Assembly: GCA_000720535.1 (NCBI GenBank)
Contig: JOAZ01000002.1
Coordinates: 186,001 to 250,000 of the forward strand
Length of the DNA: 64,000 nucleotides
DNA from: Streptomyces halstedii
GTDB lineage: Bacteria > Actinomycetota > Actinomycetes > Streptomycetales > Streptomycetaceae
Reading direction: 5' to 3'
The translations under genes and the position numbers were made by a program. Every line of letters starts with the position of its first letter. Within the stretch, counting starts at the first letter, position 1. Shown piece by piece: positions 13,275 to 40,224 of the stretch. The notes under the pieces were generated by a model. It was not told where the DNA came from. It was given only the letters and a program-made list of their open reading frames with translations, and ran no database searches.

Positions 13275-14447
13275 CTACAGGGGCCGGCCCGGCTCGTCGA
13301 GCCAGGCGTACTCCCCGGCGGCACCGACCGTGAGGCCGAACCGGGGCCACTTTGGGCGGCCTTGGGCGCACCACCACGCGTGAGCGGCGCGCACCTCGTC
13401 CCAGAGCCTCCGTGGACCGTGCTGCCAGACCCTCGCGTTCTCTCCTTCCCGCAGGAAGACGCAGGCCCACGAATGGTCGTCGCGGCTGTAGAACCAGAGC
13501 GGCTGAGCGCCGTCCCGTGCCTCGGCCGGATTGAAGGTGCAGTCCGGCACCCGGAGGCCGAGAGCGAAGTTCAGCGGACTGAACCGACCACCCGACGCGA
13601 TCTCCGAGGCGACCTCCGGGGACTCCTCGACTGCCGGGAAGTCCGTGTGAGGGGCGTACGCCTCGTGGGAGACCGGCGTGATCCGGTGGGAACGCAGCTT
13701 CATGAACTCGACGGGGCCGACGAAATTGCCCTGCGCGATCTGCCCGTTCGGCTGGACCTGAAGACGTACGAGCGCGTCGTCATGGGTGAAGCCGGTCCCC
13801 CACGGGGCCACGATCACCCCCAGGGGTCGGGTCTGGGCGACCCAGTCGAAGGGGATCTTCCGGACTCCGCAGGTGGCGAGGGTCCGGTCGTAGGGCGCGT
13901 GGCCGGGCACTCCCCGGGATCCGTCTCCGTGCACGACCTCCACGAGCGCGCCGAACCGGTCCAGGGCTCTTTTCGCCTGGTCGGCGACGGACCGGTCCAC
14001 TTCCACACTGACGACGTTCTCCTCACCGGCGCGGTGAGCCAGCAGGGCGGCGTTCCACCCCGTCCCCGTGCCGATCTCCAGGACCTTGGAACCCTCGTCC
14101 ACGGTCAGGAGGTCGAGCATCTGGAACACGAGACTCGGCATGGAAGCCGAGGAGGTGGGGAGACGGCCCGGCTGATGGCCCTCGTGCTCTCCGTCGTCCC
14201 ACTGGGTCACGATCGGGAGGTCCGCGTCGGCGTACTCCTGCCAGCGCTTCTCGTCGTCGGCCCGCGAGACGTGAACGACCTGTCCCGTCTTCATGTCGAA
14301 GGGCCAGATGCCGTCGGGAAGGAACGCCCGGCGTGGCACCAGGGCGTAGGCGTTGAGCCATTCCGAGGTGAGGACACCGGCGGACACGAGGGCGAACCCC
14401 ACCTCTTTACGGGTGGGGCAGGCCTTTTCCTCTTCTGTTTCCTTCAT
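13275..14447 (-). CDS. PIMT-like (PCMT family) methyltransferase, RiPP-type candidate
   Basis: SAM-dependent methyltransferase of the protein-L-isoaspartate O-methyltransferase family. SAM motif I is VLEIGTGTGWNAALLA (residues 122-137), the acidic post-I motif VSVEVDRSVA follows, then VVHGDGSRGVPGHAPYDRTL, and finally IPFDWVAQTRPLGVIVAPWG. The substrate-serine region reads PTSSASMPSLVFQMLD (97-112); I recall similar Ser-rich versions in methyltransferases tied to modified peptides. Length is 390 residues against about 210 for the repair enzyme; the extra 170 C-terminal residues resemble the extended RiPP enzymes in plan. It starts 10 bases after the stop of a 44-residue ORF and has no good ribosome binding site of its own, suggesting coupling. 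Inference: it modifies Asp in that peptide. An orphan repair or stress methyltransferase is the alternative. Confidence 0.82.
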   Translation of the reverse strand: MKETEEEKACPTRKEVGFALVSAGVLTSEWLNAYALVPRRAFLPDGIWPFDMKTGQVVHVSRADDEKRWQEYADADLPIVTQWDDGEHEGHQPGRLPTSSASMPSLVFQMLDLLTVDEGSKVLEIGTGTGWNAALLAHRAGEENVVSVEVDRSVADQAKRALDRFGALVEVVHGDGSRGVPGHAPYDRTLATCGVRKIPFDWVAQTRPLGVIVAPWGTGFTHDDALVRLQVQPNGQIAQGNFVGPVEFMKLRSHRITPVSHEAYAPHTDFPAVEESPEVASEIASGGRFSPLNFALGLRVPDCTFNPAEARDGAQPLWFYSRDDHSWACVFLREGENARVWQHGPRRLWDEVRAAHAWWCAQGRPKWPRFGLTVGAAGEYAWLDEPGRPL

Positions 14448-14457
14448 CTGGCTGTGA

Positions 14458-14592
14458 CTACTCCTGCGGAGGGTTGGGGACTCCCGGACCGCCGTCCGGT
14501 GATGGCGGGGTGGAAGGGCCGGGCCACGGGGTGCCGGGCAACTTGTCCTCGCCGTCCCCGCCGTGCGCGTTCGTGTACACGAAGGTGTTCAT
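14458..14592 (-). CDS. 44-residue peptide, candidate precursor for the PIMT-like enzyme
   Basis: Short ORF starting MNTFVYTNAHGGDGEDKLPG and ending in GVPNPPQE. It has two Asp-Gly pairs (Asp13-Gly14 and Asp33-Gly34), a further Asp16, one Trp23, no Cys, and a Pro/Gly-rich second half. GAGG lies eight bases before the ATG, and the ATG overlaps the stop of the upstream small ORF (ATGA). The methyltransferase gene starts ten bases downstream. Asp-Gly is the sequence most prone to succinimide (aspartimide) formation, so this peptide could be the enzyme's substrate. That is inference from context; the ORF is short and could be non-functional. Confidence 0.6.
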   Translation of the reverse strand: MNTFVYTNAHGGDGEDKLPGTPWPGPSTPPSPDGGPGVPNPPQE

Positions 14593-14765
14593 GTTCTCTT
14601 CCTCTCGATCTGGGCTTCCTCGGCCTCCCCGTGCTCGGGACCCATGCCACCGGGCGCGGGGGAAGTCTGGGGGTTCGTGTTCTCCTCGGGGCGGTCTGGG
14701 CAGACCTTCGCTCCACAGGCGCAGGGCGGGAACAGGGACGGGGACGCGTAGTGAGACGTGTCCAC
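14589..14765 (-). CDS. Small Cys-containing protein, first gene of the methyltransferase unit
   Basis: A 58-residue frame from GTG 14765 (VDTSHYASPSLFPP), with a CACGAKVC motif giving three cysteines (spacing C-x-C-x4-C), then a Glu/Pro-rich tail ending IERKRT. GGAAG lies just before the GTG. The frame stays open upstream to another GTG at 14867 (92 residues), so the start is uncertain. Its TGA overlaps the ATG of the 44-residue ORF by four bases, pointing to translational coupling. No family is recognised. It could bind metal, act as a chaperone for the peptide, or be a leader ORF for coupling. Confidence 0.5.
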   Translation of the reverse strand: MDTSHYASPSLFPPCACGAKVCPDRPEENTNPQTSPAPGGMGPEHGEAEEAQIERKRT

Positions 14766-14964
14766 GCGCTTCCGGAACCAGAGGCTTTCGGCGGCGGGCT
14801 CCGTCCCCCTGCCGGGCCGGAGATGGATGGATGTGCCCGGTGGGGGCCTTCGAGGGTCGTCAGGCACGCACCCGCTCCTCTGTGTAGCTGTTTCACTACC
14901 AAGGGTGCTCAGCGTGGCCTAGGCTGAAGGTGTCTGCAACGTGGCATATAGGGAGGGCACGTTG

Positions 14965-15786
14965 GTAAACCGCAAGGAGTTGAACCCGGACAGCTCGCCA
15001 CAGGCGGCCTTCGGTGCCCGTCTGCGCAGGCTGCGAGAGGAGCGTGGCTGGATCCAGGACCACCTCGCCGGACTGGTCGGCTGTACGGGGAGGCATGTCT
15101 CCGCAATCGAAACTGGGCGCAAGCCGCCAACCCTGCCGTTTTCGCGCCGGGCTGACGTCGCGTTAGGTCTCGCGGGATCCCCTGCGTCGTTCGAGCGCGA
15201 ATGGCGGGAGATGAGGCACGGCAGCCCGCTGGAGGGCTTTCCCGAGTACGTGGGCTATGAGGGTCGTGCCGTAGAGATCAGGCTGTTCGAGATCGGGCTT
15301 GTTCCTGGCTTGCTACAGACGCCGGAGTACGCGCGGACTCTGGCCGACGGTGATGTGCGGCGAGGGGCCATCACCCCTGAACAGGCTGAGGAACGCGTCT
15401 CGTTCCTGATGGAACGGCAAGCGGCGCTGGTGCGGCCACGGCCCCCCATGGTGCTCGTCGTCATGGATGAGAGCTGCCTCCATCAGGCTGTCGGCGGTCC
15501 GGAGATCATGAAGGCTCAGCTTCAAGGTCTGGTGGAGGTGGCCTCGCTCCCCAACTGGATTATTCAGGTTGCCCCGTTCGGCATCGGCGCGCGGCGAGCG
15601 TTCAACCTGCCGGTCAACTTGCTGACCCTGGCCGATCGGTCCGTCGTCGCGTACGCCGAATCGCAGGCGCAGGGGCACGTTGAGCGGGAAATGTCGTCCG
15701 TCGTGCCCATGCTCACGGCCTACCATCAACTACAGGGCGAGTCGCTGTCGCAGGCAGCGTCAGTGGCCAAGATCAGCCAGTTGTGA
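14965..15786 (+). CDS. XRE/Scr1-family transcriptional regulator (HTH plus DUF5753)
   Basis: Helix-turn-helix (about residues 15-65: FGARLRRLREERGW, LAGLVGCTGRHVSAIETG) followed by the DUF5753 domain (about 85-270), with EIGLVPGLLQTPEYAR, VVMDESCLHQAVGG, NWIIQVAPFG and the C-terminal LSQAASVAKI. This two-domain protein is the regulator half of the Streptomyces WhiJ/Scr1-type pairs, usually partnered by a DUF397 protein, as here. The start is taken as GTG 14965, eight bases after GGGAGG at 14951; the GTG at 14941 lies upstream of that site. Codons use more A/T in third position (CTT, GTT, TTC/TCG mixes) than the surrounding core genes, consistent with transfer. It is divergent from the methyltransferase unit across about 200 bases. 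Confidence 0.9.
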   Translation, partial: VNRKELNPDSSPQAAFGARLRRLREERGWIQDHLAGLVGCTGRHVSAIETGRKPPTLPFSRRADVALGLAGSPASFEREWREMRHGSPLEGFPEYVGYEGRAVEIRLFEIGLVPGLLQTPEYARTLADGDVRRGAITPEQAEERVSFLMERQAALVRPRPPMVLVVMDESCLHQAVGGPEIMKAQLQGLVEVASLPNWIIQVAPFGIGARRAFNLPVNLLTLADRSVVAYAESQAQGHVEREMSSVVPMLTAYHQLQGESLSQAASVAKISQL

Positions 15787-15797
15787 AAGGGCATCCC

Positions 15798-16007
15798 GTG
15801 ACGACCGAATCCCTCCGTTGGTTCAAGTCCTCGTACAGCTCGAACGGCGGCAACTGTGTCGAGGTCGCCGCCGGCTTCGCCGCCACGCGCGGGGTCGTTC
15901 CCGTCCGTGACTCCAAGCAGGTGAGCGGCCCGGTTCTCAACGTCTCCGCCGATGCGTTCTCCTCGTTCGTGGCGGGCGTCCGGGCGGGAGACCTCGGCAC
16001 CGTCTGA
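15798..16007 (+). CDS. DUF397 protein, partner of the XRE regulator
   Basis: A 69-residue protein with the DUF397 hallmarks: WFKSSYSSNGGNCVEVA at the N-terminus, VPVRDSKQ in the middle, and SADAFSSFVAGVRAG at the C-terminus. DUF397 proteins are encoded next to Scr1/WhiJ-type regulators and are thought to counteract or tune them. The start is GTG 15798, with AAAGGG seven bases upstream; a GTG at 15783 overlapping the regulator stop is also possible. A T-rich terminator follows, closing the pair. Confidence 0.88.
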   Translation: MTTESLRWFKSSYSSNGGNCVEVAAGFAATRGVVPVRDSKQVSGPVLNVSADAFSSFVAGVRAGDLGTV

Positions 16008-37716: not shown

Positions 37717-40224
37717 ATGGTGACGTTCGCGCAGGCGCAGGAGCGGGCGGACGAGTGGGTCAACGGTGACGTGCCCGCGTATCAGCACCGTGAGGTGCGG
37801 GTCCGTGAGTTCGAACTCGGGTTCGTGGTGTGGGCCGAGGACCGGCCGGAGGGTCCGGTGTCGGACGGGGGCCGCCAGCGGCTGGTGATCGCCCGGGACA
37901 GCGGTGAGGCCACGCTGTGGCCGGGGCTGCCTGTGGGTGAGGTCATCCGGCGGTACGAGGAGGAGTACGGGGCGCGTGGCACGGCCCCGGCCGCTCCGGA
38001 GCCGCCGCGGCGCATCGATCTGAACCAGACGTCGTTCCTGCTGACTCCGCCGGAGTGGCTCCAGGAGGCGGCGGACAAGCTGGGCATCCCGGACCGGCGC
38101 GCCGAGTCGGAGCCCGAGGGAGCGCCGCCGGTGCCGGGCGGGGCGTCTTCGGGCGGCACCGGCGACGCCCCGTCGGGCGGCGTTCCCGCTCAGGGGGCCG
38201 CCCGCCCGGAGCCGTCCGACGCGGCGGCATCCGGTACGGCGGCGTCGGGCACAGGGGCGTCGTCGGGTGGTTGGCCGGCGGCCGGTGGCGAGGAGGACCA
38301 CGAGCCGACGGCGTCGGACGGGGTGCCGGCCGGGGCCACCCCGTGGGCGGGCACGGACACGAACGCGGGCTCGGACGAGGGCGAGGTGGGGCTGCCGGCG
38401 ACGGTGTTCGCACCGCCGCTGTCCGGGTCGGACGACGACGACACCCCGCCCCCCGGTGTGTCGGCGGAGGCGCCGACCGCGCTGATGTCGGGCGGGAGCC
38501 AGCTGCCCAGGACGGCGGTCGTCCCGGGGCTCGACCCGCAGCCCGGACCGGGCACCCCGTCCCCCGGGGCGCCCGCCGCTCCCGGGGCGCCGACGGGCCC
38601 GGCCTCGTCCGGGACGTCGGGTTCCTCGGCCGCGGACATCGCGGACGCGGCCACCAGCAAGGCGACCGTGTCGCCGCGTGGCGCGCGGGGGACGTGTCCG
38701 ACGACCCCGCCGCCACCGGGCGCGCCCGGTACGCCGGGTGGTGCCGTGCCCCCGCCGGGTGCTCCGGGGGTGCCCGGCGCTCCGGGGGGTTACGTACCGA
38801 CGCAGTTGGTGGCGCAGACGGGTCCGCCCGGCGGCACCCCGGCCCCGGGCGCGTCGACGCCTCCGGGTCCGCCCCCTGCCCCTGGAGCGACTCCGCCGCC
38901 CGGTCCGCCTGGTCCTTCTGGTCCTCCCGGCCCTCCTGGTGCGACGCCGCCTCCCGGTGGCGGGGTGCACCATGCCGCGACGGTGTTCGCGGACGCGAGT
39001 ATCGGCGGCCCGAACATGCCGCGTCCTCCGGGTCCGCCCGGTCCGCCGGGTGCGACCCCGCCGCCCGGTCCGCCGGCTCCGCCTGGCGCGACGCCGCCGG
39101 GTGGAGGGGTGCACCACGCCGCGACGGTGTTCGCCGACGCGAGCCTCGGTGGCCCGAACATGCCGCGTCCTCCGGGTCCGCCCGGGGCGCCGGCCGGTCC
39201 GCACACCCCGCCGCCCCCGGCGTACGGCTATCCGCAGCAGCCGGCCGGGCAGCCCACGGTGGGCCCCGGCTACCAGGCGGTGCTGAGGTTCCGCGCGCCC
39301 GACGGCAGCGAGCAGCGGTTGATCCGCCGCTCCGCGCCGGGTACCCCGCACCCGGAGTGGCAGATGCTGCACGAGCTGCGCGCGATGAACGTGCCGCCGC
39401 AGCAGGTCATCGAGCTGCACACGGAGCTGGAGTCGTGTGAGCTGCCGGGCGCGTACTGCGCGCGGATGATCCGGGAGATGTGGCCGCAGGTCCGGATCAC
39501 GAGCGTCGCTCCGTACGGCACGGACCACGCGAGCCGGCAGCAGGGCATGCGCGCTCTGCTGACGCATCAGGGCGAGCTGCACCAGGTGGCGGACGGTCCG
39601 GCGCGGCCGGCCCCGGTGCGGGCGCCGCTGCCGCAGGTGGCGCCCGCGCCGCCGCTGCCGCCGGAGGCGCTGGCCGAGGAGATGCTCGGCGCGTTCGGCC
39701 CGCAGGGCGTACTCCGTTTCGACCAGCGGGCGGTGTCGCGCCAGGGCGTGCCGGAGAGCGTGGCGCGGACCCTGGTGTGGGCGGGGCTGCCCGCCGATTT
39801 CGGGCCGTTCTTCTGGGGGCAGCCGGGGCAGCCGGTGGTGCCGACGCTGGGTGAGCTGGCCGCGCAGCGGCAGGTGCGGGCGGCGTCGGACGCGGGTTCG
39901 TATCTCGTGATGGGGTCGGACTTCGGCCGGGCGGTCTGTGTGCAGTACGGCACGGCGAACATCGTGGCCGTACCGGTCGAGGCGGGTCCCGGCGGGCAGC
40001 CGGTGCCGCCGCAGTTCGTCAACACCGGACTGGCCGAGTTCGTACGGTCGATGGCGTTGCTGGGCCGGATGTGGCGGCTGCGGTACGGGCTGAATCCGGA
40101 GCAGGCGGGCCGCTGGACCGTCGATTTCCAGGCGCAGTTGGCGGCGCTGGACCCGGCGGCGCTGGCGTCGCCGGAGAGCTGGTGGTCGGTGCTGCTGGAG
40201 CAGATGTGGGACGGGCTGTTGTGA
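37717..40224 (+). CDS. Imm35-like / deaminase-like / SUKH-4 fusion protein
   Basis: 835 residues with several modules. Residues 1-87 (FAQAQERADEWVNGDVPAYQ to EEEYG) resemble the Imm35/YrhB immunity domain. Residues 88 to about 510 are a Pro/Gly/Ala-rich linker containing two copies of GVHHAATVFADAS (about 416 and 464). Residues 515-605 form a nucleic-acid-deaminase-like domain: GSEQRLIRRS, HPEWQMLHELRAMNVPPQQV, ELHTELESCELPGAYCARMI. Residues 650-835 resemble SUKH-4: FDQRAVSRQGVPESVARTLV to WWSVLLEQMWDGLL. It carries both immunity-like and deaminase-like parts in one chain. GAGGGG ten bases before ATG 37717 supports the start. A strong terminator follows. Confidence 0.82.
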   Translation: MVTFAQAQERADEWVNGDVPAYQHREVRVREFELGFVVWAEDRPEGPVSDGGRQRLVIARDSGEATLWPGLPVGEVIRRYEEEYGARGTAPAAPEPPRRIDLNQTSFLLTPPEWLQEAADKLGIPDRRAESEPEGAPPVPGGASSGGTGDAPSGGVPAQGAARPEPSDAAASGTAASGTGASSGGWPAAGGEEDHEPTASDGVPAGATPWAGTDTNAGSDEGEVGLPATVFAPPLSGSDDDDTPPPGVSAEAPTALMSGGSQLPRTAVVPGLDPQPGPGTPSPGAPAAPGAPTGPASSGTSGSSAADIADAATSKATVSPRGARGTCPTTPPPPGAPGTPGGAVPPPGAPGVPGAPGGYVPTQLVAQTGPPGGTPAPGASTPPGPPPAPGATPPPGPPGPSGPPGPPGATPPPGGGVHHAATVFADASIGGPNMPRPPGPPGPPGATPPPGPPAPPGATPPGGGVHHAATVFADASLGGPNMPRPPGPPGAPAGPHTPPPPAYGYPQQPAGQPTVGPGYQAVLRFRAPDGSEQRLIRRSAPGTPHPEWQMLHELRAMNVPPQQVIELHTELESCELPGAYCARMIREMWPQVRITSVAPYGTDHASRQQGMRALLTHQGELHQVADGPARPAPVRAPLPQVAPAPPLPPEALAEEMLGAFGPQGVLRFDQRAVSRQGVPESVARTLVWAGLPADFGPFFWGQPGQPVVPTLGELAAQRQVRAASDAGSYLVMGSDFGRAVCVQYGTANIVAVPVEAGPGGQPVPPQFVNTGLAEFVRSMALLGRMWRLRYGLNPEQAGRWTVDFQAQLAALDPAALASPESWWSVLLEQMWDGLL

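Follow-up and report, generated by a model that had tools for sequence, protein, structure and literature searches.

A probable type I pamtide (imiditide) operon with a divergent XRE-DUF397 pair in Streptomyces halstedii

More than 1,500 two-gene clusters, each pairing a PIMT homologue with a precursor peptide, have been described as pamtides (Lee et al. 2023, PMC10787088). Published type I precursors are about 45 aa long and contain 17.3% Gly, 16.8% Pro and 10.2% Asp (PMC10787088); a review names this class imiditides (Zhu and Link 2026, PMC13001092). Most type I precursors have conserved acidic and basic ends, of which the C-terminal one is important to SpaM and NmaM (PMC10787088, PMC13001092). 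The WxxxGxP motif has been described in lasso, graspetide and imiditide PIMTs, and no biological role has yet been assigned to the aspartimide RiPPs (Zhu and Link 2026, PMC13001092). Type II pamtides, or cysimiditides, also consist only of a short precursor and a PIMT homologue, and are defined by a conserved Asp flanked by two CxxCxGxG motifs. Group 13 graspetides (graspimiditides; tgmABC, TIGR04188) have a related methyltransferase and an ATP-grasp synthetase beside precursor and PIMT. DUF397-DUF5753 pairs occur near some of them and near group 11 graspetides (Carter et al. 2026, PMC13097080).

Here we describe a locus in a 64,000-nucleotide stretch of the Streptomyces halstedii genome (the window). 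The operon is real and conserved, and the locus is a new member of the published imiditide/type I pamtide class. Like the SpaA-SpaM and NmaA-NmaM systems, it pairs a roughly 45-aa Gly/Pro/Asp-rich precursor with a PIMT homologue whose C-terminal extension carries WxxxGxP, and it has no cyclase. Unlike them, it adds a Cys-rich ORF and a divergent XRE-DUF397 pair with a sequence dyad.

Operon layout and enzyme family

ORF calls place three genes on the minus strand: a methyltransferase, a 44-aa peptide ORF and a small upstream Cys-rich ORF (Table 1). The original prediction had described two tiny ORFs joined by a 4-base overlap and followed by a 10-base gap. Both spacings stand (overlap at 14589-14592; gap between the peptide ORF and the methyltransferase start), but the upstream limit of 14765 does not, as it would remove conserved residues of the Cys-rich ORF. 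The start is most likely the GTG at 14867, preferred because it is preceded, at a distance of 7 nt, by a GAGGAG box and because the alignment with relatives begins there. A search for consensus sigma-70 promoters and terminators returned none. Beyond the divergent regulator genes lie galT, galE and galK. The order response regulator, methyltransferase, peptide, Cys-rich ORF, XRE, DUF397, galTEK is common to Streptomyces sp. SirexAA-E (locus L004). Elsewhere in the window (37717-40224, plus strand), an 835-aa ORF has a polymorphic-toxin-like arrangement, with an XOO_2897-like deaminase domain ahead of a SUKH-4 immunity domain.

Table 1. Features of the locus, in positions of the window.
Feature	Positions	Strand	Description
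PIMT-family peptide aspartyl O-methyltransferase (PAMT), predicted	13275..14447	-	390 aa; SAM motif EIGTGTG; C-terminal WxxxGxP (WCAQGRP)
Putative precursor peptide	14458..14592	-	44 aa, MNTFVYTNAHGGDGEDKLPGTPWPGPSTPPSPDGGPGVPNPPQE; likely modified residue Asp33 (Asp33-Gly34)
Small Cys-rich ORF	14589..14867	-	92 aa from GTG; motif PPCxCGxxxCPD; ATGA overlap with peptide start
Putative operator	14884..14899	.	dyad GTAGCTGTTTCACTAC (GTAG-N8-CTAC), between divergent genes
Divergent XRE-DUF5753 regulator	14941..15786	+	Pfam scan
DUF397 (BldB-type), partner of XRE regulator	15783..16007	+	Pfam scan

The predicted PIMT-family enzyme is present, and its nearest curated model is the PIMT family of ATP-grasp peptide (graspetide) clusters, TIGR04188. 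This top NCBIfam match covers residues 20-378, nearly the full length, and scores 293.7 bits, below the cut-off of 380. Identity to two plasmid tgmC genes is 34.9% and 34.5%. The Pfam PCMT match ends at residue 250, and the remainder forms a C-terminal extension of more than 100 aa with WCAQGRP at 359, the combination (the motif usually, not always, present) that characterizes type I enzymes. The Ser-rich segment SSASMPS of the original prediction lies at residues 99-105, and EIGTGTG at 124. Among 127 related enzymes, described below, the patterns EIGTGTG, SSASMPS and WxxxGxP match 93, 69 and 109, respectively. Between the window and L004, the enzyme has a pN/pS of 0.35.

A protein-repair PIMT (Pcm) accompanied by small ORFs that arose by chance or serve regulation would also contain a PCMT domain. 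A PDB sequence search returned 10 distinct sequences, of which nine are named PIMT and one O-methyltransferase, although the best (1dl5) matches residues 53-217 only. We consider this reading very improbable. The enzyme is nearly twice the length of a repair enzyme, as originally noted: repair-PIMT models span 215-217 positions (one has 322), and all score below their equivalog cut-offs (NF001453, 101.3 against 188 bits; TIGR00080, 78.2 against 159.05 bits). The conserved short ORF found at most related loci also argues against it.

No ATP-grasp, LanB/C or radical SAM gene had been seen nearby, and a Pfam scan of 30 window ORFs likewise contained none. The genome encodes no tgmB-type ATP-grasp enzyme, and one LanM-type (DUF4135) gene is located on a different contig. 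Across the 127 related loci, none had a tgmB-like ATP-grasp gene within the fetched flanks of about 3 kb; both positive controls were recovered. The locus thus lacks the ATP-grasp synthetase that group 13 graspetides have beside precursor and PIMT, and the scans revealed no primary enzyme from any other RiPP class in the cluster. A graspetide cluster that has decayed, or whose ATP-grasp enzyme is encoded elsewhere, is hardly credible. The affinity to TIGR04188 would fit it, and tgmB-like genes occur in 314 of the 392 genus genomes, but no such gene is present in the S. halstedii genome or in the fetched flanks of the 127 loci, and the only two tgmC sequences used in the enzyme tree together form a single, separate starred branch (the tree is rooted on them). 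The proposed minimal, methyltransferase-only system is real. It is also of a known kind, since it matches the published type I pamtides/imiditides, a class defined by that trait.

Precursor peptides at related loci

Related enzymes (E<=1e-60) were found in 112 of 392 genus genomes, that of S. halstedii included. The set of 127 loci comprises 120 listed places, four named loci, the window and two second hits; about 3 kb was fetched on each side of the 120 places, with some flanks shortened by contig ends. A short ORF of about 46 aa, rich in Gly, Pro and Asp and with a conserved Asp that is usually Asp-Gly, lies directly upstream of the methyltransferase in 111 loci and is absent in 16. The suggested check, whether short ORFs always precede the homologues, thus comes out mostly in favour. 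Peptides fall into class A (20 loci, with PDGGPGVPN, window included), A2 (8), B (36), C (40) and D (7). The peptide patterns were written after viewing the sequences, so reverse-strand and downstream controls were run. With the class C pattern tightened after it misfiled locus L049, the patterns matched 0 of 127 loci in each of three controls: the opposite strand of the upstream region, the downstream region, and the opposite strand of the latter. A pattern scan of viral contigs found no relative.

The 111 peptides average 45.9 aa, with starts chosen by a scripted rule, and contain 23.7% Gly, 15.1% Pro and 10.3% Asp. The window peptide has 25% Pro, 18.2% Gly, 6.8% Asp and no Cys, and the conserved PDGG places an Asp next to Pro and Gly, as expected of a type I precursor. 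Between the window and L004 its pN/pS is 0.47 in frame, compared with 1.36 and 1.63 in the shifted frames; by this measure, which rests on only 14 changes, the frame is under purifying selection. Together with the 111 of 127 loci, these values make the upstream short ORF more than chance.

Peptide type follows the enzyme tree. Precursor type requires 16 changes on the tree, compared with 74.3 when shuffled; class C forms one clade, but 4 changes are required for class A and 6 for class B, on a quick tree with some long branches. A second methyltransferase on another contig of the S. halstedii genome (G000 C17:504798-505925, locus L135) is 44% identical to the window enzyme; its locus is imiditide-type, with a class C peptide ending in SSDGQGPADGR. 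Locus L086 (genome G090) has two precursors before one methyltransferase, one class A-like and one class B.

Across the 11 codons of the class A block PDGGPGVPNPP, each codon varies and does so solely at the third position; the block's identity at the protein level reflects how the peptides were selected, because the block served as the anchor. The enzymes compared were recruited by their own sequence and not by that of the peptide. In class A, A2 and B peptides, the PD site holds Asp in 63 of 64 and Asn in one; matching accepted the first hit within the final 27 residues, so one or two of these may be another Asp. Gly follows the site in 56 of the 64, and 105 of 111 peptides have Asp-Gly within the last 35 residues. 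From this conservation, the modified residue in the window peptide is most likely Asp33, in the context PSPDGGPG. Asp13, which is also followed by Gly, and Asp16 are further candidates.

The window peptide departs from typical type I precursors at its C-terminus, PNPPQE, which is acidic rather than basic. The acidic N-terminal and basic C-terminal residues are typical of the class but do not define it. The last 12 residues have a net charge of -2, compared with a class A mean of +0.65. Tail charge and enzyme charge showed no correlation over the 111 pairs (rho -0.04 for the last 150 enzyme residues and -0.07 for the whole enzyme), so charge co-variation was dropped as an argument.

We judge it highly probable that the locus is a type I pamtide/imiditide operon in which the 44-aa ORF is the precursor and the PIMT homologue methylates one Asp. 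The original prediction of an aspartimide-forming RiPP agrees with the size and composition of the precursor and with an architecture matching type I pamtides/imiditides (PMC10787088, PMC13001092); we infer the chemistry. The enzyme would bind SAM and methylate one Asp side chain, most likely that of Asp33. The Gly34 amide would then attack the methylated Asp33 to form an aspartimide (-18 Da), whose hydrolysis would yield mainly isoaspartate. The pathway would require neither a cyclase nor any other primary RiPP enzyme.

The upstream Cys-rich ORF

The motif PPCxCGxxxCPD occurs upstream of five of the 127 enzymes (the window, L004, L043, L044 and L062) and in none of three controls. All five loci have an XRE gene scoring 250 bits or more. 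A profile of the Cys-rich ORF matched 4 of 392 genomes: three matches lie beside an enzyme, and the fourth is in a decayed copy (L181, G155 C68 about 116800) with a damaged enzyme, XRE and Cys-rich ORF. We rejected mere chance as the origin of the ORF, which is conserved in relatives. Comparing the Cys-rich small ORFs with Pfam and NCBIfam gave no match above cut-off.

The ORF could be a partner, a leader or a second substrate. If it were a substrate of this branch, alone or as the second of two, a metal-held turn could display the Asp that follows CP, loosely resembling the arrangement in type II pamtides. That Asp is present in all five loci, and in L004 the Cys-rich ORF forms an in-frame fusion with the precursor. 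L043 and L044 (enzymes 62% and 60% identical), which come next after L004 in nearness to the window, have no precursor recognisable by the peptide patterns and keep the Cys-rich ORF together with the enzyme, XRE and DUF397. The lack of a precursor at these two loci, and at 16 of the 127 in all, also weighs against the imiditide reading. However, the window precursor has no Cys, and the Cys-rich ORF has three Cys only, in PPCACGAKVCPD, and lacks the CxxCxGxG pair by which type II is defined. It also stands at five enzyme loci compared with 111 for the precursor, and since it goes with a strong XRE it may belong to the regulator. We regard a substrate role as unlikely.

Other small Cys-containing proteins occur in the set. 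The L061 and L113 precursors are in-frame fusions to an upstream one of CxxC...HPx type, and L054, L062, L063 and L144 encode small proteins upstream of the precursor with an EPVPVxxCDVCGA...HPH-like motif. The CxxC..HPx pattern was found upstream in 7 of 20 class A, 2 of 8 A2 and 5 of 40 class C loci and in 2 of 16 without a peptide; the controls gave 3, 0 and 2 of 127.

The divergent XRE-DUF397 pair and its dyad

WhiJ-type proteins carry DUF5753. As in WhiJ-BldB (XRE-DUF397) pairs, an XRE regulator is followed here by DUF397; the window pair differs in being divergent from a RiPP operon, with a candidate DNA-binding site between them. Using the window's own XRE as query, a divergent XRE was found upstream in 13 of 20 class A, 3 of 8 A2, 0 of 36 B, 3 of 40 C and 0 of 7 D loci, and in 4 of 16 without a peptide. 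The enrichment in class A (13/20 compared with 6/91) has a Fisher p of 4.6e-8, not corrected for relatedness.

The dyad GTAG-N8-CTAC matches once in the window, where 0.10 is expected, and 10 of 100 shuffles also hold one. It is associated with this XRE subfamily. Of 12 rows with an XRE of at least 250 bits, 10 have a dyad upstream of that gene, which corresponds to 9 of 11 loci because L043 was counted twice, compared with 1 of 42 rows with a weaker XRE. The remainder of the 396 kb examined at these loci contains none. The strong-XRE rows without a dyad are L181 and L107.

A stricter pattern, GTAGY-N6-RCTAC, has five sites in the S. halstedii genome. Three are at XRE-DUF397 pairs of the window type, the window included, and the other two have none of the tested genes nearby. 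The dyad is rare, and not enriched, in this genome, as the reversed control pattern has 151 sites. Eleven other genomes have 1-7 sites each, and in seven of them one is at this kind of locus. The two further XRE-DUF397 pairs marked by the dyad in the S. halstedii genome (at position 1501 of L186 and L188) have XREs 61% and 63% identical, and each is divergent from a small ORF with VVDTxRGxLVGEFRGVAGPYWSLRPxRGG.

The divergent pair probably controls the operon through the dyad. In the parts of the literature covered (main texts on imiditides/pamtides, aspartimide RiPPs and DUF397), no statement on an XRE-DUF397 pair, a dyad or a Cys-rich ORF was found for imiditides. It would be a long shot that, in the branch formed by the window, L004, L043 and L044, the enzyme acts additionally, or even chiefly, on the Asp of PPCxCGxxxCPD in the Cys-rich ORF, which would be a metal-held substrate or partner, with the WhiJ/BldB-like pair switching the unit through GTAG-N8-CTAC. 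If true, this would be a regulator-controlled imiditide with two coupled peptides.

For the type I pamtide/imiditide operon itself, the acidic-tailed precursor offers a test of the generality of the charge-based recognition model. The regulatory arrangement is worth testing: a candidate operator and a regulator of known type beside an imiditide operon would give a direct handle on the role of aspartimide RiPPs.
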